This document shows positions 4,649 through 30,383 of a stretch of 64,000 bases of DNA, piece after piece. Each line of letters opens with the position of its first letter. The stretch's first letter is position 1. Below the pieces are notes generated by a model. That model was not told the origin of the DNA and did no database searches. It saw only the letters and a list, made by a program, of their open reading frames with translations. This DNA is from Nitrospiraceae bacterium (GTDB taxonomy: Bacteria > Nitrospirota > Nitrospiria > Nitrospirales > Nitrospiraceae), in contig CAKKRE010000023.1 of assembly GCA_919902505.1 (NCBI GenBank), positions 1-64,000 of the forward strand, written 5' to 3'. A program made the translations under genes and the position numbers.

Positions 4649-5653
4649 TTACGCTAAGGTGTAGCGGCCGGCTTTCTGGGTGCCGCTGCGTTGCACCAGT
4701 CCTGCTTCGAGGAGCGGGTTCAATAGATCCATGGCTCCTTGCTTGGAGACCCGCACGCTCTCGCGAATCTCCTTGGGGGTCATCGACCGGCGGTCCTTCA
4801 ACAACTGCAGCAATTGCTCTTGGCGTGGCCGCAACATCACCTTTTTCGGTGCGACGCTCGCTCCGAGACGCTGAATACGCATCCAGACTCGATCCAAGGT
4901 CACTCGCAAGGCCTGGGCGCAATACTCGATCCATTGGGTGAGGTCGTCTCCCTGTTTTCGCACGTTCGCCAACGCCGCATAATAGGCAGGGCGATCCTCG
5001 CCGTACACTTCGTCGACAGAGAAGATATGGTGCGTATCGAATCCTCGTCGGTAGAGTTCCCACAAAGCCAAGGCTCGCCCCGTGCGCCCGTTGCCGTCAG
5101 CGAACGGATGAATGGCTTCAAATTGATAGTGGAGAATGGCTGAGGAGATCACCGGCGACCACTCACGTGATGGTCCGTTCCACCATGCCAGGAGCTCCGC
5201 CATCAACCCGTGGACCAGTTGCGGCTCGGGCGGTGTATGGCGGCCCACATAGACCTGGATGTCGCGGTACCGGCCCGCGTCGCCTTGATCCATGACTTCG
5301 GCGGCCAGTGTTATGTGGAGGGTGAAGACATCTCGATGGGTCACGCGTTTCTTGTCGGCATGGCGCTCAACATGCCGCAGTCCTGCGAGATAATTCAGGA
5401 CTTCTCGTTTGGCGCGAGAGGGTTCGGCCGGAAGACCGTGTCCTTCTTCGATGAGCCGGACTTGTTCCAGCGTCAATGGATTGCCTTCAATCGCTGTAGA
5501 GCTATGGGTGTTCCGCACGCGTGCGTCGCGTTGGAGGCTGGGCATCCAGGGAACCTGAACGGTGGCCGACATAATTCTTTCCCGTAACACGGCGATCCGT
5601 TCGAGTTCGCCGACGACTTGGGCGGAGACGGCAAATTTCGGTTGGTACGGCAT
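4649..5653 (-). CDS. Fic family AMPylase-like enzyme
   Basis: A 334-residue protein. Fic enzymes usually transfer AMP from ATP to a hydroxyl side chain of a target protein. The complete catalytic motif HPFADGNGRTGR is at residues 182-193. The inhibitory motif (S/T)xxxE(G/N) is present near the N terminus as STAIEG, residues 52-57, placing it among class II, auto-inhibited Fic proteins. The C terminus (about 265-334) looks like a winged helix: RSMTPKEIRESVRVSKQGAMDLLNPLLEAGLVQ. This helix-turn-helix is typical of stand-alone Fic proteins that may regulate their own gene. Three direct repeats lie just upstream of the start. The target cannot be inferred. Confidence 0.92.
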   Translation of the reverse strand: MPYQPKFAVSAQVVGELERIAVLRERIMSATVQVPWMPSLQRDARVRNTHSSTAIEGNPLTLEQVRLIEEGHGLPAEPSRAKREVLNYLAGLRHVERHADKKRVTHRDVFTLHITLAAEVMDQGDAGRYRDIQVYVGRHTPPEPQLVHGLMAELLAWWNGPSREWSPVISSAILHYQFEAIHPFADGNGRTGRALALWELYRRGFDTHHIFSVDEVYGEDRPAYYAALANVRKQGDDLTQWIEYCAQALRVTLDRVWMRIQRLGASVAPKKVMLRPRQEQLLQLLKDRRSMTPKEIRESVRVSKQGAMDLLNPLLEAGLVQRSGTQKAGRYTLA

Positions 5654-5670
5654 CGGACACAGGGTAAGTG

Positions 5671-5703
5671 ATGGGTCAAGTATGAGTCAAGTTATGAGTC
5701 AAC
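5671..5703. repeat. Three direct repeats ahead of the Fic gene
   Basis: ATGGGTCAAG, ATGAGTCAAG and ATGAGTCAAC occur at 11-12 bp spacing. On the Fic coding strand they read as iterated TTGACTCAT units that include a -35-like TTGACT. They sit 18-50 bp upstream of the Fic start, as operator repeats would. Confidence 0.45.
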
Positions 5704-5870
5704 CCTGAACTCAGAAAGGAATCGTGACGTTGGAGCATGGGGCGCAAAGTCGGCGGCAGGAAAGAGGAGGGGATTCCCGTTCAATCCGCCTGATGGCCTC
5801 GCGGATATTCTGGAGGCGCTGCGGCTGTGGTATACGCTCAAGGTGGTCCTGGGCCCATTATCTGCGCGCC

Positions 5871-7229
5871 TCAGGAAATCTGCGGCTCACTGGGGTGAGG
5901 CGCGCCGGACGGGCGAGGAATTGTGGCCGGTTCGGCGGCGGGTGCGACGTGCCCGGCATCGAGCAGGATGGCGACGAGCATATCGCTCATGACGTTCACG
6001 CCGGAGCGAGCGCGGGCGATGATCCAATCCACCGTCATGATGAGTGGAATGGCCGCAATGATGACATGGTCCGGCAGGCCCGCGGCGGCCAGCACCAGCG
6101 GCAGGACAATCAGTCCGGCTTCGGGAATGCCCGCCACGCCGGCCCCTGCGATAATGGAGGCGAGCACGATCAACACCTGTTTCACCATCGGCAGGTCGAA
6201 GCCCAGCGCCTGCGCGAGAAAGAGGGCGGCCATGGCTTCATAGAGGGTGATGCCGTCGTTGTTGAGGTTCGTCCCGACACAGGCTGCGAGGCGCGACGAT
6301 TGCGGTGAGACATTCATGCGGTGGAGACACTGGAGTGTCACCGGCACGGTCGCGAGGCTGCTGTTGCAGGACACGGCGGTCAGGATGGCGTCGGCCCCCT
6401 GGCCCAGGTAGACCTTCGGCGACTTTTTCCCCACCAGCCAGGCGAGGAGCGGATAATAGATGAGCGCGTGGGCCGCGAGTCCTGCGAGCATGGCGACGAG
6501 GAAGATCCAGAGCACGGAAAAGACGCCGATGCCGGCCTTGCCCACGACCTGCGCCACGACGCCGAAGACGGCGAGCGGCACCACCAGGATGATCCATTCG
6601 AGTATCTGCACCAGCCAGACATAGACCCACTCGATGCCGCGCACGAGGGCATTGACCAGCCCGGTGGTCTGGTCCTGTTCGCTCCGGACCATCCGCAGGG
6701 TGGCGCCGAGCACCAGCGCGAGGAGGACGATGCCGATGATGTTGTTGCTCGAAAACGGGTCGGTGATGGTGCGGGGAATATAGGAGGCGAGGTACTCGAT
6801 CGGGCTTTGAGCCCCAGCCTGCACGTTGGCCAGCACCGTTGCGGAGGGCTTGGTGCCCGGCACCAGTTGGAGCAGGGCATCGACGCGGCCCTGCCAGGCC
6901 AGGCCCGGCTGCCAGGTGTTCATGATCGCGAGGCCGATGGCCATGGCCACGGAGACGTTCACGAGGCAGATCAGCAGCAGTTTGCCCCCCTGGCGCAGCG
7001 GAATGGTGGTGCGGATGAGCGCATCGAGGATCGCGAAAAAGATCAACGGAATAGCAAGCGTCTTGAGCAGGGTGACGACGAAGAGGCCGAGTGTGCCCAG
7101 CTGCGCATTGCGCAGACCGCCCCAGTAGGGGTCCTGCCCGAAGATGGCACCCAGTAGCCCGCCGCAGATCACGGCGATGAGCACTTGTGTATAGAGCGGC
7201 AGCGGGATCCAGCGATGCGTCGGCTTCAT
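5871..7229 (-). CDS. Dicarboxylate/amino acid:cation symporter (DAACS family)
   Basis: About 452 residues from the ATG at 7229; the longer frame from 7346 adds a non-membrane leader and is less likely. It is a secondary transporter of the GltP/DctA fold with about eight membrane helices and two hairpins. Visible landmarks are the hairpin-1 serine motif (NSSLATVP), the TM7 motif as NNDGITLYEA instead of the usual NMDGT, hairpin 2 (AGVAGIPEAGLIVLPL), and the TM8 segment DWIIARARSGVNVMSD. The residue that in aspartate carriers is Asp before the Arg is Ala here, as in dicarboxylate-type members, so an organic acid substrate is more likely than an amino acid. Immediate neighbours give no pathway. 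Confidence 0.85.
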   Translation of the reverse strand: MKPTHRWIPLPLYTQVLIAVICGGLLGAIFGQDPYWGGLRNAQLGTLGLFVVTLLKTLAIPLIFFAILDALIRTTIPLRQGGKLLLICLVNVSVAMAIGLAIMNTWQPGLAWQGRVDALLQLVPGTKPSATVLANVQAGAQSPIEYLASYIPRTITDPFSSNNIIGIVLLALVLGATLRMVRSEQDQTTGLVNALVRGIEWVYVWLVQILEWIILVVPLAVFGVVAQVVGKAGIGVFSVLWIFLVAMLAGLAAHALIYYPLLAWLVGKKSPKVYLGQGADAILTAVSCNSSLATVPVTLQCLHRMNVSPQSSRLAACVGTNLNNDGITLYEAMAALFLAQALGFDLPMVKQVLIVLASIIAGAGVAGIPEAGLIVLPLVLAAAGLPDHVIIAAIPLIMTVDWIIARARSGVNVMSDMLVAILLDAGHVAPAAEPATIPRPSGAPHPSEPQIS

Positions 7230-7444
7230 GTCGGTCTCTAGTGGAGGCGGAAGAATACCGTAGTCTTCACTGGATAACATCCCGCTGGAGGGAAAGGCTA
7301 GCCCGGACTCTTCAGGAAGACCGCTTCGTCGTCTGAGCCTCTCCATCGATCAATAGAACATCAGCACCAGTGCCCCCATTGCGGGGACGGTGTGAAAGGA
7401 GTATTTTCTTACGCATTCCTACCCCACCATAGAAGGAGGCTATC

Positions 7445-8629
7445 ATGAGACGCTTCCGACTCCTCTCCTTGACCCTCGGGCTGCTGCTTCTCTGCGCGGC
7501 GTCGGTTCGGGCGGAACTGTTGGCCCTGCTCAACTACGAGAGTAAACCAGACCAATCGGTCAGACGGGAAGGCATCGCGATCATGGACATCGATCCCGAG
7601 TCGTCGGACTTCGGGAAGGTCTTGATGGAGATCCCGCTTCCGCCGGACCTCGTCGCGCACCATATCTTCTTCAACCGCGACCGGACGAAAGCCTACATTA
7701 CGGCCTTAGGCAAACGCGTCCTCCACGTCATGGACCTCACCCGCTTTCCCTATCGCCTCCGCGCCATCGAGGTGCCCGACTGCCAGGTGCTGGAAGATTT
7801 GGTGGTGTCGGACGATAACCGGACCTGGTACCTGACCTGTATGGGATCGAGCGCGGTGATCATGGGCGATGCCGTGAAGGACAAGCCGATCAAGACCATC
7901 CGTACGCCGGACGGCGGGGGCGCGTCCGTGCTCTATCCGCACGGCATTGCGATTCACAACGGGATCGACCGTGTGCTGATTACGAGCACGGTGAAGCCCG
8001 ATATGTCGGATGCGGGCGACTCGGTGACGGTGTTGCAGGCGAGTACCGGTGCGGTGCTCTCGACGCACAAAGTGTCTTCTAAACCGTCACCGGCCAAGGC
8101 TGCCCCGGTCGAAGTGATGTTCGCTCCCTTTTCGAACCCGCCGGTGGTGCAGATCACGAACATGTTGGAGGGCACCTTGTGGACCGGCACCTGGGATGCG
8201 GCCAGCCAGTCGTTTTCGTTTCAGCAGGTGGACGACTACGGGCCCCGGCAACAGGGCATGCCGCTGGAGATGCTCTACAACGCGAAAGGGGACCGATTGT
8301 TCGTCACGACGGCGAAGCCGGGATTCGTGAATCTCTACGACAATTCCGACCCCAGTCACCCGCGGTTTCTCCAGGCCATCCCCGCGGCCCAGGGCGCCCA
8401 CCATAGCGTGTTGTCGCCCGATGAACGCTACCTCTTTGTCCAAAACAGCCTGCTCAATCTGGAAGGCATGAGCGACGGGTCCATCACCGTGATTGATCTG
8501 TCCAAAGGCGGGACGGTGCTGGGGAGTATCGACACGTTGAAAGCGCAAGGGTTCAACCCGAACTGCATTATGCTGCTGCCGAATCATTTCCGGCAGGCCG
8601 ACTTGCGCGCAAACCTCGTTGCAAAGTGA
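7445..8629 (+). CDS. Periplasmic beta-propeller protein, YncE-like
   Basis: A 394-residue protein with an AGGAGG ribosome site and a clear signal peptide (residues 1-23, ending VRA). The mature part is a run of WD/YVTN-like blades: DRTKAYITAL, DDNRTWYLTC, GDRLFVTTAKPG, DERYLFVQNSL. The HGIAIHN and AHHSVLSPDE segments are typical of surface-layer/YncE-like seven-bladed propellers. The role is unknown; such proteins often act as scaffolds or bind small ligands in the periplasm. The gene stands alone, about 110 bp ahead of the moa promoter. Confidence 0.75.
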   Translation: MRRFRLLSLTLGLLLLCAASVRAELLALLNYESKPDQSVRREGIAIMDIDPESSDFGKVLMEIPLPPDLVAHHIFFNRDRTKAYITALGKRVLHVMDLTRFPYRLRAIEVPDCQVLEDLVVSDDNRTWYLTCMGSSAVIMGDAVKDKPIKTIRTPDGGGASVLYPHGIAIHNGIDRVLITSTVKPDMSDAGDSVTVLQASTGAVLSTHKVSSKPSPAKAAPVEVMFAPFSNPPVVQITNMLEGTLWTGTWDAASQSFSFQQVDDYGPRQQGMPLEMLYNAKGDRLFVTTAKPGFVNLYDNSDPSHPRFLQAIPAAQGAHHSVLSPDERYLFVQNSLLNLEGMSDGSITVIDLSKGGTVLGSIDTLKAQGFNPNCIMLLPNHFRQADLRANLVAK

Positions 8630-18962: not shown

Positions 18963-20660
18963 ATGCTGACCGAGCTGCGCATCTCGAATTTCGGCGTGAT
19001 CGAGCAGCTGGCTGTCCGTTTCGGCTCCGGCTTCATCGTGTTGACCGGTGAAACCGGAGCCGGCAAATCTCTCCTCATCGATGCGGTGACGCTCCTGGTC
19101 GGGGGCCGTGCCTCGACGGATCAGATCCGTGCCCAGTCCGATGAAGCCGATCTCGAAGCGGCGTTTGTGTTGCCGTCAGACCATCCCCTTCTCCATCTGC
19201 TCCAGACCAAGGAATTCGCCCGTCCGGGTGAGACGGATATTGTCATCCGCCGCGTGATTTCCAGGACGGGGCGCAACCGGACCTACCTCAACGGCAATCT
19301 CTGCCCGGTTCATCTTCTGGAGGAACTGGGCGGCGCATTGGTGGATGTGCATGGCCAGCACGAGCAACAATCGCTGTTGTCCTCTGCGGCTCAGCTGGAG
19401 GCGTTGGATGCCTTCGGCAGACTTCATACGCTTCGTCAGGACTATCAGGTCGCATATCGGTCGTGGCAGGAGCGGGTGGCTGAACGTGAGATGCTGACTG
19501 CGCACATCGCCCAGCGCCGAGAACGTGAGGATCTGCTGCGTTTTCAATTTCAGGAAATCTCCGATGCCGCTGTGGAGGCGGGGGAGGACGCGCGGCTTGA
19601 ACAGGAACGCCCGCGCCTGATGCATAGTCAACAACTGGGAGACCTTTCCGACCAGCTTCATGAGTTGCTGTATGCGGGTGATCAGGGCGTGCTGAGCCTG
19701 TTGGCATCCGCGCGAAAACTGCTCTCGAAGATGGTGTCGATCGATCAGGCTGCCGTCGAGTGGACGCAGGTAGTAGACGACGCTATCGTTCCGCTGAGGG
19801 ACCTGGCCGACCAGATCCGGCACTATCGTGATCAAGTCGAGGCCAACCCGGCACGATTGATGGAAATCGAGCAGCGGCTGGATCGACTGCATCGGCTGAG
19901 CAAGAAATACGGCGGATCGTTGGATGCCATGCTGGTGCTACAAGACTCTCTACGTGCTCAACTGGCCCAATTGGACACAGCGGAAACCCAGCTGCAGGAC
20001 CTGGCCACTGCCGTGGAGGATGCCGCACGTCGCGTGGGTGAGCTCGCCGGGCATCTCTCCCGCAAGCGAATCGACGCGGCCAAGAAACTCACGACGCAGG
20101 TGACGAAAGAGTTGAGCGCGCTTCGGATGGAGCGAACCCGTTTCGCGGTGGAGGTGCTTCCGCTGCCCGGCGAGACGGCCTACGGCCAGATGGGCCACGA
20201 TGCCGTGGAGTTTGTCTTTTCGGCCAATCCAGGCGAACCACTCAAGCCGCTTGCCAAAGTGGCTTCCGGGGGGGAACTGTCCCGTGTCATGTTGGCATTA
20301 AAAACGATTCTGGCCGAGAGCGATCGAGTTCCCGTGCTGATTTTTGACGAAGTCGATGCCGGAGTCGGCGGGGCGGTGGCTGAAGTGATGGGGGCACGCC
20401 TCCGGGATCTCAGCCGGCACCACCAGGTGCTCTGTGTGACGCATCTCCCGCAGGTCGGGTCCCAAGCCCATGCGCATTACCTGGTCGAGAAGCAGGTGCG
20501 CCAGCAGCGCACCGTGACGCAAGTTCGGTTGCTGACGGAGCGCGAGCGGGAAGAGGAAGTGGCGCGGATGTTAGCCGGGGTCACGGTGACCAACAGTGCG
20601 CGCGCGGCGGCGGCTGAAATGATCGGCAGCGCAAAGGAACGACGGGCGCGATCGGATTAG
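18963..20660 (+). CDS. recN: DNA repair protein RecN
   Basis: A 565-residue SMC-like ATPase that holds broken DNA ends during recombinational repair. It has the Walker A motif GETGAGKS (residues 29-36), the coiled-coil arms in the centre (about 150-370), the ABC signature KVASGGELSRVMLALK and Walker B VLIFDEVDAGVGG near the C terminus, followed by VTHLPQVGSQAHAHYLVEK. Length is standard. The stop codon overlaps the stop of the convergent HD-GYP gene. Confidence 0.96.
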   Translation: MLTELRISNFGVIEQLAVRFGSGFIVLTGETGAGKSLLIDAVTLLVGGRASTDQIRAQSDEADLEAAFVLPSDHPLLHLLQTKEFARPGETDIVIRRVISRTGRNRTYLNGNLCPVHLLEELGGALVDVHGQHEQQSLLSSAAQLEALDAFGRLHTLRQDYQVAYRSWQERVAEREMLTAHIAQRREREDLLRFQFQEISDAAVEAGEDARLEQERPRLMHSQQLGDLSDQLHELLYAGDQGVLSLLASARKLLSKMVSIDQAAVEWTQVVDDAIVPLRDLADQIRHYRDQVEANPARLMEIEQRLDRLHRLSKKYGGSLDAMLVLQDSLRAQLAQLDTAETQLQDLATAVEDAARRVGELAGHLSRKRIDAAKKLTTQVTKELSALRMERTRFAVEVLPLPGETAYGQMGHDAVEFVFSANPGEPLKPLAKVASGGELSRVMLALKTILAESDRVPVLIFDEVDAGVGGAVAEVMGARLRDLSRHHQVLCVTHLPQVGSQAHAHYLVEKQVRQQRTVTQVRLLTEREREEEVARMLAGVTVTNSARAAAAEMIGSAKERRARSD

Positions 20661-21799
20661 GTCGTCGGTGAGGTTTTTGCGATCGCGAGGGCGGGCAGGG
20701 AAGATTTGCATTCCCGCACGACTTGGGCAAACAGCTCTGTCAGTTTCGGGTCGAAGTGAGTGTCCGCTTGGAGCACGATCTTGCGGATGGCGTCGTCGAT
20801 GGACATCGGGAGGTGTCCCGGCATATCGACCGTCAAGTTATCGAAGGCTTGGGCGATGGCGACGATGCGTGCCAAGAGCGGAATGCCTTCTCCCTCCAGC
20901 CCATGGGGATTGCCCAGTCCGTCGAATCGTTCATGGTGATAGGCCACGATCTGTCCCACCTCGGCCTGAAATTCAAGCGGTAGCAGCATCCGCGCGCCGG
21001 CCTCAGAGTAGGCTTTGGCGAGGGCCCCGTTCTTGATACTGTCGTCATCGTCCGCTGCATACTTATAGTTGGGAATACTGATCTTCCCGATGTCGTGGAG
21101 AAACGCGCCCAGCGCGAGCGCCTTCTGATCGGGAAGGGAGAGGTTGAGCTGGTTGGCAAGAAGCGAGGCATAGAAGCTGACGCGGCTGCAGTGGTTCAGG
21201 AGTTGGCGGTCCTTCGCTTCGAGGAGGTCGGATAACAACGGGATCAACGCCGTGACATCGCCTGTACTGGCGGCGGGTTCCGGGGCGGATTTGCCGATGG
21301 AGAAATAGTTGGCTTGCAGATCTTTCCACGCCTGGGCTGCTTCCTGTTCCGTTCCCCACAAGGCGGTCGATGTTTTGAGAAACGAACGCAGGTAGTCCAG
21401 CCGCTGCTTTTTCTCGAGTGTTTGGTTGATGAGGGCGATCAGTTCGGTCACATTGAAAGGCTTGAGCAGATAGCCCGCGGCGCCGTGCCGGATGCCTTCC
21501 ATCGCAGACTTCAAACTGCCGTAGCCGGTAATGATGATGACTTCGATGTCGGCATAGTCCTGCTTGATGTCTTGCAGCAGATCGATTCCCTGGCGGTCGG
21601 GCAGCTTTTGATCGAGGGTGATGAGGTCGATATGCTGGTCTTTGAGGACCCGCAGGGCTGATTTGGCGTTGTCGGCGGAGTGGATGGTGAAGAACGGACG
21701 AAGGATGACTTTGAGCGCGTCCCGTGGACCGGTTTCATCATCGACGACCAGTACCGACGGCTTCGTGCCTACGTATTCAGGTGATGTATGGGTCCCCAT
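20657..21799 (-). CDS. Response regulator with degenerate HD-GYP domain
   Basis: A 380-residue protein. The REC domain (residues 13-130) has its phospho-acceptor at D63 and the usual K of KPF at 113. The output domain (about 180-350) is an HD-GYP-type fold: HDIGK at 235-239 and HHERFDG at 288-294. The signature GYP is GNP (296-298), and the N-terminal His of the fold is in NHCSRV. HD-GYP proteins hydrolyse cyclic di-GMP, but loss of the Tyr may alter activity or specificity. It is the last gene of the minus-strand signalling cluster and sits tail to tail with recN. Confidence 0.85.
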   Translation of the reverse strand: MGTHTSPEYVGTKPSVLVVDDETGPRDALKVILRPFFTIHSADNAKSALRVLKDQHIDLITLDQKLPDRQGIDLLQDIKQDYADIEVIIITGYGSLKSAMEGIRHGAAGYLLKPFNVTELIALINQTLEKKQRLDYLRSFLKTSTALWGTEQEAAQAWKDLQANYFSIGKSAPEPAASTGDVTALIPLLSDLLEAKDRQLLNHCSRVSFYASLLANQLNLSLPDQKALALGAFLHDIGKISIPNYKYAADDDDSIKNGALAKAYSEAGARMLLPLEFQAEVGQIVAYHHERFDGLGNPHGLEGEGIPLLARIVAIAQAFDNLTVDMPGHLPMSIDDAIRKIVLQADTHFDPKLTELFAQVVRECKSSLPALAIAKTSPTT

Positions 21800-21987: not shown

Positions 21988-23400
21988 TCATTCCTGAGTC
22001 AGCGGAGGCTCTGGATTCGCCCCGTTATCGGGCCGGCTGATGCCCAAGGTATCCATGCGGTACTTCAGCATGCGGCGACTGATCCCCAGCATGGCGGCCG
22101 CGTGGGTTTGTACGTAGGTCGTTCGCTTGAGCGCGTCCAGGATGATTTCCCGTTCGAACTCCATGACGGCCTTTTCGAGCGATAATCGTCCCGCCAACGT
22201 GTCGTCCCGGAGCGAGGTCGATCGTGTATCGGTTCGCAGGATATTCGGTAAGTGCTCCGGGGTGATGACGGTGGAGCCTTTCGACCAGATGAACGCCTGC
22301 TCGATGATATTCTCCATCTCGCGGACGTTTCCGGGCCAGGGATAGTGCGAAATCAACTCCAGCGAGTCTTTGGTGAATTCCTGGGGAGGACGTTTCTCTT
22401 CTTCGATGCGTTTCGCCAGAAAGTGTTTGGCCAGCAGGGCGATGTCTTCGCCCCGCTCGCGCAGGGGCGGCAGGAACAGCGCGATGACGTTGATGCGGTA
22501 ATACAGGTCCTCGCGGAACTGGTTCTTCCGGACCATCTCATCGAGGTTCTTGTTGGTGGCGGCGACGATTCGGACATCCACCTTGATGGACTGCACGCCA
22601 CCTACGCGCGTGAACTCACGTTCCTGTAGCACGCGTAGGAGTTTGGCCTGTGTCGCCGGGCTGAGATCGCCGATCTCATCGAGGAAAAGCGTGCCGGTAT
22701 GCGCCAATTCGAACTGGCCCACGCGCCGGGCTGTGGCATCGGTAAAGGAGCCTTTCTCATGGCCGAACAGTTCGCTTTCGATCAAGGTTTCCGGCAGGGC
22801 CGCGCAGTTGAGCGCCACAAACGGGCGTTCGCGTCGCGCGCTGTTGTAATGAATGGCCTTGGCCACGAGTTCTTTTCCGGTCCCGCTCTCGCCGGTTATC
22901 AGGACGGTGGTGCGACTGTCGGCCACTTGCTCGATTTTCGCGTAGATTTCCTGCATCGCCGGGCTTTTGCCGATCAGATTGTGAAAGGCATACCGCTGGA
23001 CGACCTGCGCGCGTAGTTGACGAACCTCTTGTTCTAATTCCTGTTTGCCCAGCGTGCGCTCAATGACGATTTGCAGCTCCTCGACATCGAATGGCTTGGA
23101 TAGATAGTCGGCTGCCCCCAGTTTCATGGCATCGACGGCCGTCTTGACCGATTTGGTCCCGGTTAGCATGATCACCGGTACGGCACGATTCTCGGTGCGC
23201 ATTGCCTGGAGCGCCGCCAGACCGTCTGTTCCCGGGAGGATCACGTCCAGCAGGACCAGGTCCGGCGCATCGTGTTTGAAACTCTTGAGGCCTTCCGCGG
23301 CGTCCGCCGCTTCGAGGATCTCATAGGTCGGTTCCAGCACTGTTCTCAGCGAGGCGCGAACACGCGGCTCGTCATCGACAAGTAGTACCCGTTTTTTCAT
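21988..23400 (-). CDS. Sigma-54-dependent NtrC-type response regulator
   Basis: 470 residues from the ATG at 23400, which follows GGGAGTAAC and starts one base after the kinase stop. Domains are REC (1-120, phospho-acceptor D52), AAA+ (about 140-375) with Walker A GESGTGKE (170-177) and Walker B LFLDEIGD, and a Fis-type helix-turn-helix at the C terminus (AAMLGISRRMLKYRMDTLGI). The sigma-54 contact loop reads GSFTDA (217-222) instead of GAFTGA; the essential Phe-Thr is kept. It is the cognate regulator of the kinase encoded immediately upstream, with which it is translationally coupled. Confidence 0.94.
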   Translation of the reverse strand: MKKRVLLVDDEPRVRASLRTVLEPTYEILEAADAAEGLKSFKHDAPDLVLLDVILPGTDGLAALQAMRTENRAVPVIMLTGTKSVKTAVDAMKLGAADYLSKPFDVEELQIVIERTLGKQELEQEVRQLRAQVVQRYAFHNLIGKSPAMQEIYAKIEQVADSRTTVLITGESGTGKELVAKAIHYNSARRERPFVALNCAALPETLIESELFGHEKGSFTDATARRVGQFELAHTGTLFLDEIGDLSPATQAKLLRVLQEREFTRVGGVQSIKVDVRIVAATNKNLDEMVRKNQFREDLYYRINVIALFLPPLRERGEDIALLAKHFLAKRIEEEKRPPQEFTKDSLELISHYPWPGNVREMENIIEQAFIWSKGSTVITPEHLPNILRTDTRSTSLRDDTLAGRLSLEKAVMEFEREIILDALKRTTYVQTHAAAMLGISRRMLKYRMDTLGISRPDNGANPEPPLTQE

Positions 23401-23401
23401 G

Positions 23402-24682
23402 TTACTCCCGTGCGGCTGAAACTGTGGTGCGTGCATCCGGTGCTGGAAGATTTACGGAAAACGTCGAACCTGCGCCGACTCGACTTTCCACCAATAGCGT
23501 GCCGCCATGTTCGCGGACGATTTGATGCGCGGTGGTCAGGCCAAGGCCGGACCCATCGCTCGCGCTATTGGTATGCTTGGTCGTAAAAAACGGATCGAAA
23601 ATATGCTCCAGGTGGTCCGGGGCAATGCCGCACCCCTCGTCCTCCACCTCCAGTTGTACCCAGGCTGTGTGGCCGGCTTGCGGCAGCACGCGTGTGCGGA
23701 TCTGAATCACGCTGTTGCCGTTGGGCATGGCATCGAGCGCATTCAGGAGCAGGTTTAAGAGCACCTGTTTGATCTGCTGGCGATCGAGCGAGAGCGTGGG
23801 TAGTTGAGGGGCCAGTGTCGTGTGCAGACGAATTCCTCGATGCGAGGCGGTGGACGAGACGAAACCGAGGCAGGATGTCACCAGTTCGTTCAGGTCCACG
23901 TCGCTCGGCTGCGGGGTCATGTAACTCGCATAGTCGAGGATTTCGTGCAGCAGCCGCTCGATGCGATGGACGTCTTCAATGGCGACTTGGCTGAATTCAC
24001 GGATGAACACCGGGTCTTGCTGGCGTTGCGGGGCCAGCTGAATAAAAGTCTTGATCGAGGTGAGGGGGTTACGGATTTCATGCGCAAACCCGCCCGCCAT
24101 AATTTCCAACGAGCGCAATCGATCGGTGCGTCTCATCAAGGTGGAGGAGCGCCGAAGGTCGTCCTGCGCCAGGTGATGATCCAAGGTATTGCAGGCGATG
24201 CGTGCGACGGTCTCTGCAAGGATCACGGTTTCTTCGTTCAGGTGACACTCCGTGCCGATCGGCCCAAGGGCGCAGAGTCCGAGAAACTGCGTCTTGTTCC
24301 GGAGAGGAAGGCACACCGCTGTCTGTATCGACATCATGGCTGAGCCGGCGGGCGAAGATGAGGCCTGGTCGTATCGGAGCAGGCGTGGCCGGTCGGAAAG
24401 ACACGTGATAAGGGCGTGGTTATCCGGCAGGCTAGCCGGCAATGCCGTAAGCGTGCTGTGTCCCAGAGAGGCAAGGAGATGGTATTGGCCGTCTGCTTCT
24501 CGTATCCATATGGCGGCTTCCGGCAAGCGCAACTGTTCGCTGAGGATCCTCAAGATGCACTCGCCGACCTGCGTGAGATCGGTGGCCTGTCCCACCGATT
24601 CGGCAAACGCGCCGATCATTCTGATGGGGGCTTCGGAAGCAGAAAGAATAGGGGTGTGCCGAATGTGCTCGTGGAGTGCCAT
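23402..24682 (-). CDS. GAF-containing sensor histidine kinase (NtrB-like)
   Basis: A 426-residue, apparently soluble kinase without membrane helices. A GAF-type sensor domain covers about residues 25-170 (LTQVGECILRILSEQLRL, AVCLPLRNKTQFLGLCALGP). HisKA follows with H201 in FAHEIRNPLTSIKTF. HATPase_c holds the N box (QVLLNLLLNALDAM), G1 (VEDEGCGI), F box (IFDPFFTTK) and G2 (GSGLGLTTAHQIV). It phosphorylates the NtrC-type regulator encoded one base downstream. Its signal is unknown. It follows the fusion gene after 106 bases. Confidence 0.95.
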   Translation of the reverse strand: MALHEHIRHTPILSASEAPIRMIGAFAESVGQATDLTQVGECILRILSEQLRLPEAAIWIREADGQYHLLASLGHSTLTALPASLPDNHALITCLSDRPRLLRYDQASSSPAGSAMMSIQTAVCLPLRNKTQFLGLCALGPIGTECHLNEETVILAETVARIACNTLDHHLAQDDLRRSSTLMRRTDRLRSLEIMAGGFAHEIRNPLTSIKTFIQLAPQRQQDPVFIREFSQVAIEDVHRIERLLHEILDYASYMTPQPSDVDLNELVTSCLGFVSSTASHRGIRLHTTLAPQLPTLSLDRQQIKQVLLNLLLNALDAMPNGNSVIQIRTRVLPQAGHTAWVQLEVEDEGCGIAPDHLEHIFDPFFTTKHTNSASDGSGLGLTTAHQIVREHGGTLLVESRVGAGSTFSVNLPAPDARTTVSAARE

Positions 24683-24788: not shown

Positions 24789-27700
24789 TCAGCCAGCGGA
24801 ATCAGGTTTTTCAGCGAGGGCGACCAGAATCTGTCCGGAGAACGTACGCACGAGTCTGGCCGGAGTAGATGTGACTTGGGCGAGGGCGGCGCTCAGGCTC
24901 TCTTCCTGGAATGCGTGTAGGTGACCGACGCGCAGGGCGACGCAACACTGAGCCATGCGATTGAGGGCAAGGCGAGCGTCTCCCGAGAAGGCATCGACGC
25001 CGAGTTCCTGCAAGGATGAACGATAGGGGAGGGCCATATCTGCCAAGGGGGTGATGGCGCTCACGATGAGTTTTCCGCCGGGTCGAAGCACGCGGAACAG
25101 TTCGCGAAGAGCATGGAGAGGAGAGCGTGAAAAGCTGAGGGAGAGATTCGCCACGATGCGATCGAACGAATGGTCCGCGAAGGGAAGCGTTTCTACGGAT
25201 CGACCAAGTACCCACTGCTGACTGACGGGTGTCGGCCCGGAGATACGTCCGGAGAACAGCCGATCCACGTGCTTCAAGGCGTCACTCGTCGCGTCCTGCG
25301 CGGCATGCAGCGCAGCCACTGAGAAGTCTATACCGAAGTATCGAAGCGGCTGATTCTGGTTCCAGGTTTGAGCGCGGAGGCGGTAGGAGAGGTTCAAGAG
25401 CAGGAGTCTGGCGAATGAATGAATGCCACACCCGACATCGAGCAGGGCCAGGCCTCCATCGAGTGGTTGGAGGAGTTGATACAGCTGGTCGATATATTGC
25501 CAATGCGTGGGGAGTTCATCCAAACTTCGTGTGAGATCGGTCTGTGCGGCCCAGAGTCGCTCGCGGCCTGCCGTTCCGGAGGCATATTTGATGCGGAGTC
25601 GATCACGTTCGAATCGTGCGCGGATGGAGGTTATGCGTGAGAGATTCAGGAGAGCCGGGGCGGTGGGATAGGGGAAGCGGTCCGGAGTAAGGCAGAGCTG
25701 TGCGATTCGGTGCCAGCTTGCGTGCAGTGCCGTTGGTGCGACAGCGTCGGCAGGTAGAAGGGGAGCTTGCAGCATTACGCGACTGCCTCTTGATCCGAGC
25801 CGATGCAGCGCCTCCTCCACGAGTGCCGGCGTCGGCGAAGGAGTCAGGTAGTCAGCAGCGCCTGGGCCGGTCGTCAGAAACACGACCTCGGTTCCGCAAT
25901 GCGAGAGGTCCTCCTGAAGTGCGGTGCTCTCTGTATATTGACCGGCCACGGCATCGGCCACGAAATGATCGATGTCGAGTGGAATCCCCAAGAGGTTGCC
26001 GAGCCCGAGCCGCGTTCCAGCCAGATGTTCACCTACCAGATCCCGCTGATGAAGGCTTGTCAGGCAGTTTCGGATGTCGAGTGTCGGATTGAGAAGTAAG
26101 AGCCGGCGGACTCGCCTGTGCCAGTCCTGGCGCCGCAACGCGATGCGGCCGAGCAGGTCTGGTGCCAGCAACGTGAGGGGGATTCCGTGGAACTCTTTCT
26201 GCGCAAAGATCAGTATGGTATCGAGATCGTCTTCCAGGGATGTGAGCGTAGTTTGCGTGGGGTCGCCGTCGCTCAATCCGATGTGTCGGCTGTGATCATA
26301 GCGCAGGACTTGTAGGCCGCATGCAGCAAGTGTGTAGGCGAGGGCGACATAGGCCTGTTGTGTCGTCCCGTACCCCGGGCAGAGCAGTACCAGTGGGCAC
26401 TGTGTGCCGTCTACTCGTCTCGGAACATCGTGAGACAGTGCAATCGTGAGGCCCTCACGATTGCGTAGGTGGTGTGAAACGGTGAAGACCGGCGAGTCTG
26501 ACACCGGTTCGGCGAGATCTTGCGAAGTGCCGATCCGCGGCGAGATGAGGGCCCGGAGTTTCTGCTCCTGCGCGGGCGATAAACCCTCAAAGCGCACACC
26601 GAATCGGCGTCGGACTTCTTCTGGCGGTGCGGGATTCGAGATTGTCCTGATCTGAGGTTGTGTCCAGACAATCCTCGCAGGCCAAGGGCTTTCAGAACCC
26701 TCAGGCAAGGCGGCGACGCTTAACGAAGTGTTTGGCTCGACGGGCGCCAAGTGAAAGATCTGCCGGCCTATAGGGAAGTCGTAGCCTCCCGGCAACTCGA
26801 TGCAAGCCCCATCCAGGCTCATGTTGACCGTCACTCCGAGAATAGGGGTTGGCGTGGCTGATGAACCGACCAGTCGAATCGGGCATGGGACGTTTAGACG
26901 TGCGGTCTCACGTCTATCTGTCGGCGCTGCGGTGGAGGGGAGGGGGGCGTCGGGGTTGTTCGTGGCGGTGGTGAAAAGAGGAAGGATCAATCCTTCGAAC
27001 GTGATGATTGTTGAACCGTCTTGCAGCCCGTCGAGAAGAGAACGGAGGACATTGCGGTCGCGCTCGCCGCCCGGTGAAAAGGAAATCACAAAGTTCTTGA
27101 TGGCAGAGAGAGGCAGGTCCGTAAGTGCAGCCGGTCGTTCATGCACGACTCCTTGAAGTTCCAGGAAGCTCACCGGTGTCTTGATCACCACGTAGGCTGG
27201 TTGCAGATGAATGGAGGCCGACAGGTCATGGATGGTGAGGAGGGCGCCGCCGGTGCTCATGTTTCGTAAGACGCCTCGAAGGGTGGTGCTTCCGACGGAT
27301 AGTTGCACGGGGAGCGCGAACAGCTTGCGTTCGGAACGCCGTCGGTCGGGTCGTTGTCCGGCGACGTGCTGAGATTGAACTCGAACAATGGCGGGTTTGG
27401 CGGGCGAGGCTGTGGGAGATTCAGCGCCCTCATCCGCGAAGAGATGAGCGGGAACAGGAATTCGTACCGTGATGGTCAGACCGCTGTCTGGTGCATGTTC
27501 TATTTCGATGGCGCCATCATGTGCCTGGACAACCTGGTGAGCCCGAAAGAACTGCTCGGGAGAAATATGGAGATCGGGCTGTTCGCCCATGGGAGCAGCG
27601 GTGTGTTTGGAACTTTCCTTGATGGTGAAGCTCACATACTCGCGCGAGGCGCTCGAATGCAGCGGACGCTTGCGTGAAGCGAGTGAAGGAGTGTCTCCGG

Positions 27701-28991
27701 CCAGCAGTGCCGTCTGTAGCAGAAGATGAGACGGAGCGTTGGGCAAGGACGTGTATTGGTGTGCATAATTAAGGAGGATTCTCACGAGATCCTCCAGCGC
27801 GTCCGGTGAGCCCAGAATGAGTGGAAGGTGTTGAGCCAAGTGCGTGGTTACGAGGAGCCCCGAGCCTTCTGTCTCGTGCCGGATCGTGTGCACCACGGTC
27901 TCAAGAACATGGTGCAGATCGAGGGGGGCAAATTCTAAAGGAGGAGCATGGATGGCTTGAGCCAGTTGGTGGCCAAGTTGGCTGGCCTGCGACGCCTTTT
28001 CGATCATGGTTTCGACATGCTGCTCGATTTTGCTGTGCTGAATTGAGCTGAGTAATCGTTGTGAATCCTGCAGGAGCGTGGTGAGGGGCTGTTGGAGCTG
28101 GCGGGATACCCGGGCCGCCTCCCGGGAAAGCGTGAGTTGACGGGTGGTTTCCTGGAGGCGTGACTCCAACTCGGTGAGGCGGTCCTGTTGCGCCTTCTGT
28201 TGGGAAAGGTCGCGCAGGACCCCGACCGTGCCGAGGTAACGATTGGCCGAATCGAAAAGCCCCTTGGCTGTTACCTCGACGGTGATCGATGCGAGTGGTG
28301 CATCTGGTAAGGCCTTCCGATGAAGAGTGAGCTCAAGTCTGCGTACCGAGCGGCTGCCGGCCCGTCGTTCGTTCAGGCGAAAGCGTCCTGTTGCCTCTTG
28401 CAGGGGAGGGAGTAGAAGCGAATAGTGTCGTCCGGCAAGCTCCTCGGGAGTATAGCCGAGCATGGTGGTGACGGTGGTCCCCACGTAGACAAAGCGACCG
28501 TCCCGATCAAGCTCGTACACCAAGTCGCTCAGCGTGTCGATGAACCGCTGGTGTCGCTGAAAGGTGTGGTCCAGTTTCATTTGGAGGTCGCGCTTTTCAA
28601 CCGCCTCCTGGACGGAAAACAACAACTCGGTGATAAAGGCGGGTGACCGTTTGAACAGGAGGAAGTCAGCGCCGTTTTGCAGCGCTTGGACGGCGGTTTG
28701 GGAATCGCTCTCAATCGTTTGGAGGATGATGGCCGCATAGGGAGCATGGCGACGAAGGCGGGAAAGAATGTCGAGACCGCGTTCAGGGCGTAAGTCATGA
28801 TCGATGAGGATGATTTGCCATTCGCCCTGATGGCTGAAGGTCAGGGCTTCTTCGGATGAGTAGCCTGCCTCGATCCGGCAGCCAGGGAAAAAGCCTCTCA
28901 GGCTGGAGGTGACCAGTTTGATTTCATCCGGTTGTTCGTTGATGAGGAGGATGTTGAGTGACGGTTCAGACAGCGACATGGAAGATTTCAT
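24789..28991 (-). CDS. REC-PAS-pseudokinase-PilZ-PilZ-LuxD-like-methyltransferase fusion
   Basis: About 1,400 residues from the ATG at 28991 (AGGAACC upstream; ATG 28979 is possible, 29075 is less likely). Domains in order: REC 12-130 (D64); PAS 145-265; kinase-like region 290-515 with SRQLQQPLTTL where an H box should be, so the His is Arg, and no clear G boxes; PilZ 1 at 545-665 with RxxxR (R551, R555) and NMSTGG; PilZ 2 at 690-820 with RRETAR and NMSLDG; alpha/beta-hydrolase 833-1077 resembling LuxD acyl-transferases (RYDHSRHIGLSDG) but with APDLLGR where the nucleophile Ser is expected; class I methyltransferase 1167-1395 with LLDVGCG and LPFADHSFDRIVANLSL. Both PilZ motifs for cyclic di-GMP are intact. 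It is first in the signalling cluster. The function is unknown; domains are called by eye. Confidence 0.85.
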   Translation of the reverse strand: MKSSMSLSEPSLNILLINEQPDEIKLVTSSLRGFFPGCRIEAGYSSEEALTFSHQGEWQIILIDHDLRPERGLDILSRLRRHAPYAAIILQTIESDSQTAVQALQNGADFLLFKRSPAFITELLFSVQEAVEKRDLQMKLDHTFQRHQRFIDTLSDLVYELDRDGRFVYVGTTVTTMLGYTPEELAGRHYSLLLPPLQEATGRFRLNERRAGSRSVRRLELTLHRKALPDAPLASITVEVTAKGLFDSANRYLGTVGVLRDLSQQKAQQDRLTELESRLQETTRQLTLSREAARVSRQLQQPLTTLLQDSQRLLSSIQHSKIEQHVETMIEKASQASQLGHQLAQAIHAPPLEFAPLDLHHVLETVVHTIRHETEGSGLLVTTHLAQHLPLILGSPDALEDLVRILLNYAHQYTSLPNAPSHLLLQTALLAGDTPSLASRKRPLHSSASREYVSFTIKESSKHTAAPMGEQPDLHISPEQFFRAHQVVQAHDGAIEIEHAPDSGLTITVRIPVPAHLFADEGAESPTASPAKPAIVRVQSQHVAGQRPDRRRSERKLFALPVQLSVGSTTLRGVLRNMSTGGALLTIHDLSASIHLQPAYVVIKTPVSFLELQGVVHERPAALTDLPLSAIKNFVISFSPGGERDRNVLRSLLDGLQDGSTIITFEGLILPLFTTATNNPDAPLPSTAAPTDRRETARLNVPCPIRLVGSSATPTPILGVTVNMSLDGACIELPGGYDFPIGRQIFHLAPVEPNTSLSVAALPEGSESPWPARIVWTQPQIRTISNPAPPEEVRRRFGVRFEGLSPAQEQKLRALISPRIGTSQDLAEPVSDSPVFTVSHHLRNREGLTIALSHDVPRRVDGTQCPLVLLCPGYGTTQQAYVALAYTLAACGLQVLRYDHSRHIGLSDGDPTQTTLTSLEDDLDTILIFAQKEFHGIPLTLLAPDLLGRIALRRQDWHRRVRRLLLLNPTLDIRNCLTSLHQRDLVGEHLAGTRLGLGNLLGIPLDIDHFVADAVAGQYTESTALQEDLSHCGTEVVFLTTGPGAADYLTPSPTPALVEEALHRLGSRGSRVMLQAPLLPADAVAPTALHASWHRIAQLCLTPDRFPYPTAPALLNLSRITSIRARFERDRLRIKYASGTAGRERLWAAQTDLTRSLDELPTHWQYIDQLYQLLQPLDGGLALLDVGCGIHSFARLLLLNLSYRLRAQTWNQNQPLRYFGIDFSVAALHAAQDATSDALKHVDRLFSGRISGPTPVSQQWVLGRSVETLPFADHSFDRIVANLSLSFSRSPLHALRELFRVLRPGGKLIVSAITPLADMALPYRSSLQELGVDAFSGDARLALNRMAQCCVALRVGHLHAFQEESLSAALAQVTSTPARLVRTFSGQILVALAEKPDSAG

Positions 28992-29381
28992 GGTTCCTAT
29001 GCAGTGGTGCGATCGTTCTGCTTCGATGCCGCCGGGCCGGCGACTGGGAATGCACCACCGCACAGTGATGAACATACGCTCGCTGTCGGAGGGACAATCA
29101 TGACCTCAGGAAGTCGGTTGGAGTGCATGATTGGTTCAATATCATACACCGTATTGAGAATCCCAGCCCGCTGCCTGAGGGGGGGCTTTTACTTCGGTAG
29201 GGGCGCTGGTTTCGGTGATCGCGCAAAAATGATCACCGCCTGGAATTCGGGTGCTATTGCTGTTGGGAAGAATGTTCCCAGCTTGAATGGCGCCGGCCGG
29301 GCCACGTGCGGAAAGCTTCAGGCGTGGAATGGGACGCCCACCGCAATCGTTGGACTGCGATGGGCGGGAAACGGTCTGTGC
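28992..29381. other. 390-bp intergenic region with two palindromes
   Basis: No gene is supported here; the overlapping plus-strand frames lack ribosome sites. Apart from the promoter area expected for the fusion gene, it holds two inverted repeats (29213-29238 and 29264-29280) described separately. Confidence 0.5.
29213..29238. repeat. 8-bp inverted repeat CGGTGATC-N10-GATCACCG
   Basis: Perfect arms with a 10-nt A-rich loop (GCGCAAAAAT). A second palindrome, TGGGAA-GAATG-TTCCCA, follows at 29264-29280. They lie between the 3' end of the gene at 29382-30383 and the start of the fusion gene. Either a transcript hairpin or a pair of operators is possible; there is no T-run, so a standard terminator is less likely. 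Confidence 0.4.
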
Positions 29382-30383
29382 CTAGCGCGCTGACGCGGTA
29401 TTGGCAGATTGCGGACAAACGCCAGGGGTCATATACAGCAGGTAGTTTCCCATCCCATGCTGAATATTCGGGTTTTGAAGCGGGTGGTGGTGAACCATCA
29501 CCATTTCGTAGTCGTCGCGTTTGGTGACTGTGAACCCTTTGCCATCCCGGTATACCTGATGAGGGAGAAAATCACGAAACGTGCCGTCGGCATCCACTTC
29601 GGGGACCGTTCGCAGGAGGGTTTCATTGGAGGATTTATTCTCTAGGGCCACCATCAGTAATTCGTCGTGTCCATGGGGGTAGGCGAATTTGACGCAGCCG
29701 TCCATGTTGAATTTCAGGGGGGCGGAGAGTGCGGAGACGCCAGGCTTGATTTCAATGCCTTCGTCGGTCTGGTCCGCGCCACGTTGGCCGAACTTGCTGT
29801 AGCAGACAATATTGACTCCGACCTGGTAGACATCCATTTCCTGCACCTTCGCGCCCTTCGGCGCGACATACATCGTAAAACGGGCCATCACGTCTTTCGT
29901 CGGCGGAGCCTTGTGGTAGAAGGCCACCACGGACATGAGGTTTTGCCCTTTCCCTAGCTTGACCCCGTACCCGTCCGGAAAACGTGCTTCCGTCATTTCC
30001 AAACCGGCACCGGCGAAGAACAACGGCTCGCCGTCGCAGGATACGCTCGGCTTGTCGTTATTCAGCATAAGGATGTGATGGAGGTAGTTCTTGGGCAGCG
30101 GCTTGCCGTCTTTCGTGAAGACCTCGGACTTATAGCCGATCATGTAGGTGTCGTCCGGCAACTGGAAGACCTTCTTGGGCATACTGGATGCCAGATCGCC
30201 GTCATGGCCGGTCGGCAAATCGACTGGACCGAAGGTGAGAGTGACCGTCTGGTCATCGATGGTAACCTTAGTGTCGCCTAAACTCGGCATGGTTGGAATG
30301 GCATGGTGATCGTGGCCACCGTCGGCGTAGACCGTACTGGTGACCATCAGCAGCATAACCATCGATAGCAGTGCACGATTCAT
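29382..30383 (-). CDS. Secreted His-rich protein with a PHM/Nod19-like pattern
   Basis: A 333-residue protein with a signal peptide (residues 1-20, VYADGG) followed by HDHH. The middle carries LPKNYLHHILMLNNDKPS, a Cys at VSCDGEPLFFAGAG, and VVAFYHKAPPTKDVMARFTMYVAP. The paired HH and the following barrel-like strands recall copper type II monooxygenase (PHM) or stress-induced Nod19 proteins, but this is a pattern match and the copper ligands are not certain. The C-terminal half has MVMVHHHPLQNPNIQHGMGNYLLYMTPGVC. It could bind a metal in the periplasm. It is not obviously linked to its neighbours. Confidence 0.55.
   Translation of the reverse strand: MNRALLSMVMLLMVTSTVYADGGHDHHAIPTMPSLGDTKVTIDDQTVTLTFGPVDLPTGHDGDLASSMPKKVFQLPDDTYMIGYKSEVFTKDGKPLPKNYLHHILMLNNDKPSVSCDGEPLFFAGAGLEMTEARFPDGYGVKLGKGQNLMSVVAFYHKAPPTKDVMARFTMYVAPKGAKVQEMDVYQVGVNIVCYSKFGQRGADQTDEGIEIKPGVSALSAPLKFNMDGCVKFAYPHGHDELLMVALENKSSNETLLRTVPEVDADGTFRDFLPHQVYRDGKGFTVTKRDDYEMVMVHHHPLQNPNIQHGMGNYLLYMTPGVCPQSANTASAR

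Follow-up and report, generated by a model that had tools for sequence, protein, structure and literature searches.

Introduction

YcgR and MapZ are PilZ-domain receptors for cyclic di-GMP (c-di-GMP); the methyltransferase that MapZ acts on, CheR, is a separate protein. LuxD of Vibrio harveyi (PDB 1THT), the myristoyl-ACP thioesterase encoded in the lux operon, consists of one domain and has a catalytic triad. The Phc quorum-sensing system of Ralstonia comprises the methyltransferase PhcB, the kinase PhcS, and the regulators PhcR and PhcQ (PMC8578825, PMC6989110).

The window analyzed here, a stretch of 64,000 nucleotides from a Nitrospiraceae bacterium (GCA_919902505.1, contig CAKKRE010000023.1), encodes a protein in which REC, PAS, histidine-kinase-like, two PilZ, LuxD-like, and methyltransferase domains follow one another. 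The initial annotation knew of no described system with this order, and the literature that we searched likewise yielded no description of the protein or of its domain order.

A single conserved frame encodes seven domains

The gene lies on the minus strand, where 1,400 codons stay open between an ATG at 28991 and a stop at 24789 (Table 1). The initial annotation had recognized the frame and its length correctly without giving the strand; the plus strand over 24789–28991 contains 37 stops. Each of the REC, PAS, PilZ, LuxD/Hydrolase_4, and methyltransferase matches exceeds its curated Pfam cut-off, including both PilZ stretches, and the kinase-like part is supported by hhalign, so that all seven domains stand in the order originally described. 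Of 24 same-genus genomes, 22 encode this long form as one uninterrupted frame, and five of these genomes are single-contig; in the remaining two the gene is cut by contig ends. A search across Nitrospirota recovered the same architecture in the genus and in sister genera, where the open frames span approximately 1,240–1,510 codons. The gene is therefore real and old, and an assembly fusion of separate genes is ruled out by the one-frame genomes.

The whole gene evolves with a dN/dS of 0.21–0.26. REC is the most constrained part (0.04–0.11), the hydrolase and methyltransferase domains show values of 0.14–0.29, and PilZ2 and the linker are the least constrained; purifying selection acts on every domain, more weakly on PilZ2. 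These values bear on the explanation that the whole locus is decaying and that the protein has no important function. Such decay would fit the fast evolution of PilZ2 and the altered motifs of two operon proteins described below, but the frame has stayed open across the genus and its sister genera, and the low dN/dS of the REC, hydrolase, and methyltransferase domains also argues against it. We consider this explanation very improbable. Upstream of the gene, a 333-residue protein (29382–30383) without a Pfam match is conserved and syntenic across the family. A scan for promoters and terminators gave a result near chance level.

Table 1. Features of the long-form gene and its operon in the window
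Feature	Position	Strand	Remarks
CDS, seven-domain protein, 1,400 aa	24789..28991	(-)	An alternative in-frame ATG upstream would put the start at 29075
REC	28647..28952	(-)	Residues 14-115, Pfam
PAS	28209..28550	(-)	Residues 148-261, Pfam
Pseudo-histidine-kinase (DHp + ATPase-like)	27447..28157	(-)	Residues 279-515, hhalign vs operon kinase
PilZ domain 1	27012..27347	(-)	About residues 549-660, Pfam
PilZ domain 2	26544..26918	(-)	Residues 692-816, best of two Pfam PilZ stretches
LuxD-like alpha/beta-hydrolase	25692..26480	(-)	About residues 838-1100, Pfam PF02273 (Acyl_transf_2)/Hydrolase_4, fold match 1THT
Asp945, nucleophile elbow	26157..26159	(-)	Active relatives have Ser here, every long form Asp
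Class I SAM-methyltransferase	24807..25499	(-)	Residues 1165-1395; Pfam Methyltransf_11 at 1184-1310
Operon gene 2, soluble GAF histidine kinase	23402..24682	(-)	H, G1, G2 boxes intact
Operon gene 3, NtrC-type response regulator (REC, sigma-54 AAA+, Fis HTH)	21988..23436	(-)	
Operon gene 4, REC-HD-GYP	20657..21799	(-)	GYP motif is GNP in the window

Input domains retain their signaling residues, and the kinase-like domain does not

In the REC domain, Asp64, Thr92, and Lys114 are invariant in all 23 genus orthologues that have this part, bearing out the phosphorelay input proposed earlier. Its acidic pocket is formed by Asn18 and Glu19, one acid of the N-terminal pair being replaced by Asn. The PAS match in NCBIfam runs on into the kinase-like helix region. 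This following region (residues 279–515) has no Pfam match and aligns over 216 columns with the HisKA-HATPase part of the operon kinase (hhalign probability 98.2, E 2.7e-14). In that alignment the phospho-accepting His corresponds to Arg297, invariant in 23/23 genus orthologues, and the G1 and G2 boxes are absent, in keeping with its designation as a pseudokinase. The two PilZ domains carry the canonical motifs, as was originally noted. Both RxxxR and NxSxxG are present in PilZ1 of all 25 genus orthologues; PilZ2 has RxxxR in 25/25 and NxSxxG in 21/25, with a relaxed constraint (dN/dS 0.33–0.84).

The LuxD-like domain has lost its catalytic triad

The acyl-transferase-like fold is supported by the PF02273 match and by the predicted structure of the window form, for which 1THT is among the closest solved structures (TM 0.75). 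The triad is gone in all 39 aligned long-form rows, among which two genes are each represented twice: the nucleophilic Ser is replaced by Asp, and the acid and the His are missing. Active relatives retain Ser-Asp-His, with an ambiguous His in L069, the most distant of them. The region of the would-be acid and His falls below a pLDDT of 50 in the model of the window core and is mostly well predicted in that of an active relative (L084); the models were built from 11–12 sequences and are of moderate confidence (mean pLDDT 76 and 80). A candidate catalytic His loop, EALHRL in the window, proved to be an alignment accident, its position not being conserved in the genus.

By these alignments, the long form has kept the fold and lost the catalytic residues, the nucleophile being replaced by an invariant Asp. 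Since the triad is absent from every long form, an active acyltransferase is ruled out and the proposed acyl transfer is not supported. The initial annotation, which envisaged a receptor integrating phosphorylation and c-di-GMP to steer methyl and perhaps acyl transfer, thus holds for the domain order, the phosphorelay input, the pseudokinase, and the PilZ pair, but not for this last activity.

The methyltransferase domain is retained unevenly

The predicted methyltransferase fold matches RebM, AtmM, and Coq5. Motif I reads DVGCGIH in the window and D-x-G-C-G-x-H in the genus, compared with the usual D-x-G-x-G-x-G, the third Gly being His in all 25 genus orthologues. Asp1185, the Gly-Cys-Gly, and the acidic residue at 1222, after strand 2, are kept in the same 25/25. 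These conserved residues, together with a dN/dS of 0.14–0.21 in the window genus, suggest that the enzyme may still be active there. In several sister genera with the same architecture, motif I is lost (VDIDGSNTD, VDAGIGQSD, and VDVGVGYGD), which excludes methylation as a function common to the long forms. The methyl transfer originally proposed is uncertain: the fold, the Pfam match, and the D-x-G-C-G of the genus agree with it, and the His substitution and the sister genera do not.

The same evidence bears on an alternative in which REC and c-di-GMP would gate an active methyltransferase, with the dead LuxD-like domain just presenting the acyl substrate. The predicted fold, the residues conserved across the genus, and the low dN/dS of the domain are what such an enzyme would show. 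Every member of the genus, however, has His where motif I normally has its third Gly, and the loss of the motif in the sister genera means that this activity would not be a shared long-form function. We regard this alternative as unlikely.

The long form heads a conserved operon with a soluble kinase

Downstream of the fusion gene, a GAF histidine kinase, an NtrC-type regulator, and an HD-GYP protein are encoded in an order that is conserved across the family. The kinase gene begins 106 bp after the fusion gene, leaving no room for a 7TM domain. In all 24 long-form operons, comprising 12 first seen, among them that of the window, and a test set of 12 others, the next gene encodes a soluble GAF kinase without the 7TM domain, as judged by a simple hydropathy scan for transmembrane segments; one kinase in the test set (L182) has a single borderline hydrophobic stretch. 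The NtrC-type regulators of the long-form operons checked carry GSFTDA at the GAFTGA loop, which reads GAFTGA in G034. The REC-HD-GYP protein of the window genus shows GNP, RNP, or SP-type variants of the GYP motif, which is intact in sister genera, and its HHExxDG motif is kept.

Active relatives are encoded beside a membrane kinase

The core of LuxD-like and methyltransferase domains was found in 42/198 Nitrospirota, 5/195 Verrucomicrobiota, and 1/345 Pseudomonadota genomes, the latter two samples including the genome on which each was centered. Matches also occur in named Verrucomicrobiota, in Nitrospirota, and in one Proteobacteria MAG. Among plasmids, only methyltransferase-domain matches were obtained, none covering the core.

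The window genome (G000) also carries, on contig C22, an intact paralogue with the order PilZ-PilZ-LuxD-like-methyltransferase and a complete triad and SAM motif, followed by a 7TM kinase (L026, 5321–11278). The paralogue gene (5321–8230) ends 33 bp before the kinase gene, whose 7TM-GAF histidine kinase product contains two HisKA_7TM stretches. The active forms examined are each followed, on the same strand, by a histidine kinase gene, with exceptions (L029, L068, and L069). Pfam HisKA_7TM and GAF were detected in the kinases scanned, namely those of C22, L065, L075, L084 (7601–9793), and the related operon L068, while the other neighbors show a BLAST match to the C22 kinase and predicted membrane segments. 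In L029 and L068, a PilZ-KASIII gene intervenes between the core and kinase genes; in L069, the most distant form, the kinase match is partial. The core and kinase genes of Verrucomicrobiota overlap by 4 bp. As an out-of-sample test, five further Verrucomicrobiota loci were fetched after the pattern had been seen, and all five show the adjacent 7TM-GAF kinase. This link, like the conserved operon and the intact paralogue in the same genome, is absent from the initial annotation.

The related operons of G034 and G169 retain the 7TM kinase, an intact methyltransferase motif, and the PilZ-KASIII gene. This ketosynthase fusion (L029, 7158–8756; L068, 6933–8498) has its Cys, His, and Asn in place. 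As a general partner it was rejected, since a full-length match was found in G034 only among the 61 relatives searched, and none in the window genome.

The presence of two forms in one genome raises the alternative that the long form senses what the intact C22 paralogue produces. Its dead hydrolase and SAM domains would bind that compound and report it to NtrC. Most genus genomes contain both a long and a short match, and a retained fold with an invariant Asp in place of the catalytic residues would suit a binding protein. Other genera of the family, however, have the long form and no second match in the search, so the source of the ligand would be missing there. We judge this alternative to be distinctly unlikely.

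A probable stepwise conversion of an enzyme

In the tree, all long forms constitute one clade (support 100/100), whose sister is the REC-PAS form of G034 and G039 (94/93). That form has Asn as the nucleophile residue, with the acid and His kept. The simplest order of events suggested by the tree would be a gain of REC-PAS, then loss of the nucleophile, then gain of the pseudokinase, and finally loss of the acid and His together with the 7TM part of the kinase. PilZ would have been added within Nitrospirota before REC-PAS and, later, the dead kinase domain. Intermediates of this path persist in living relatives: the active short form, the REC-PAS Asn form with acid and His, and the triad-less Asp long form.

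The active ancestor, comparable to the C22 paralogue, probably made or modified an acyl or methyl compound monitored by the adjacent 7TM kinase, a reading by analogy with PhcB-PhcS that draws on the coupling of the genes and on the joint loss of the enzyme residues and the membrane domain of the kinase. Since the ancestral enzyme is almost always encoded beside a membrane sensor, the active relatives may belong to an undescribed bacterial signaling system. A more specific proposal, which we hold to be less likely than not, is that the active LuxD-like-methyltransferase and the HisKA_7TM-GAF kinase form an undescribed signal synthase and receptor in Nitrospirota, Verrucomicrobiota, and, rarely, Pseudomonadota; that PilZ lets c-di-GMP control the Nitrospirota synthase directly; and that the window protein is a former synthase, now a dead-enzyme regulator. 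If true, this proposal would give Nitrospirota and Verrucomicrobiota a candidate signal, used between cells or for self-monitoring, whose genes are defined, and would directly link c-di-GMP to signal production.

A model for the seven-domain protein

As judged from sequence, the protein has lost its acyl-hydrolase and kinase residues and retains both PilZ motifs and the REC site, and its operon is conserved. The explanation that we favor, to which we give about an even chance, is that a LuxD-like hydrolase-methyltransferase under PilZ control gave rise to the window protein, now a signal integrator that is mostly pseudoenzymatic. In this model, REC would be phosphorylated, probably by the kinase of the operon, and the PilZ pair would bind c-di-GMP; these events would change the shape or dimer state of the protein. 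The DHp-like helices derived from a kinase may then pair with the operon GAF kinase, a step suggested only by their homology to that neighboring kinase, and this pairing would set the strength of NtrC and HD-GYP phosphorylation. The dead hydrolase, with its invariant Asp945, and the SAM domain would serve as ligand-binding, sensor-like modules rather than as a line for acyl and methyl transfer. The window protein would then clearly exemplify the evolution of a regulator from an enzyme.

Comparison with known systems

Measured against PrsK/PrsR of the XrtA/PEP-CTERM system, the operon kinase and the NtrC-type regulator score on TIGR02916 (112–144 of 300 bits) and TIGR02915 (440 of 502.6), below the curated cut-offs, and by that test they are not PrsK/PrsR members. 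The PilZ pair shares the canonical RxxxR and (D/N)xSxxG motifs with receptors of the YcgR/MapZ type. Unlike in MapZ, the PilZ domains here are fused in tandem to a REC-PAS-pseudokinase module and to dead or altered enzyme domains. When the profile of the active forms is compared with PDB sequences, LuxD stands far above all other matches (E 3e-34), and no solved fold is closer to the active form (TM 0.82). Whereas LuxD stands alone and keeps its triad, the forms described here are fused to a methyltransferase, and the window form is triad-less. The active relatives resemble the Phc system in gene logic: a methyltransferase gene is followed by a histidine kinase gene, often with response regulators, and fatty-acyl chemistry is probable. 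Synthases of the Phc type are PhcB homologues that produce a 3-hydroxy fatty acid methyl ester. Unlike Phc, the active relatives have a LuxD-like domain in addition, in many cases also PilZ, and their kinase is of the HisKA_7TM-GAF type.
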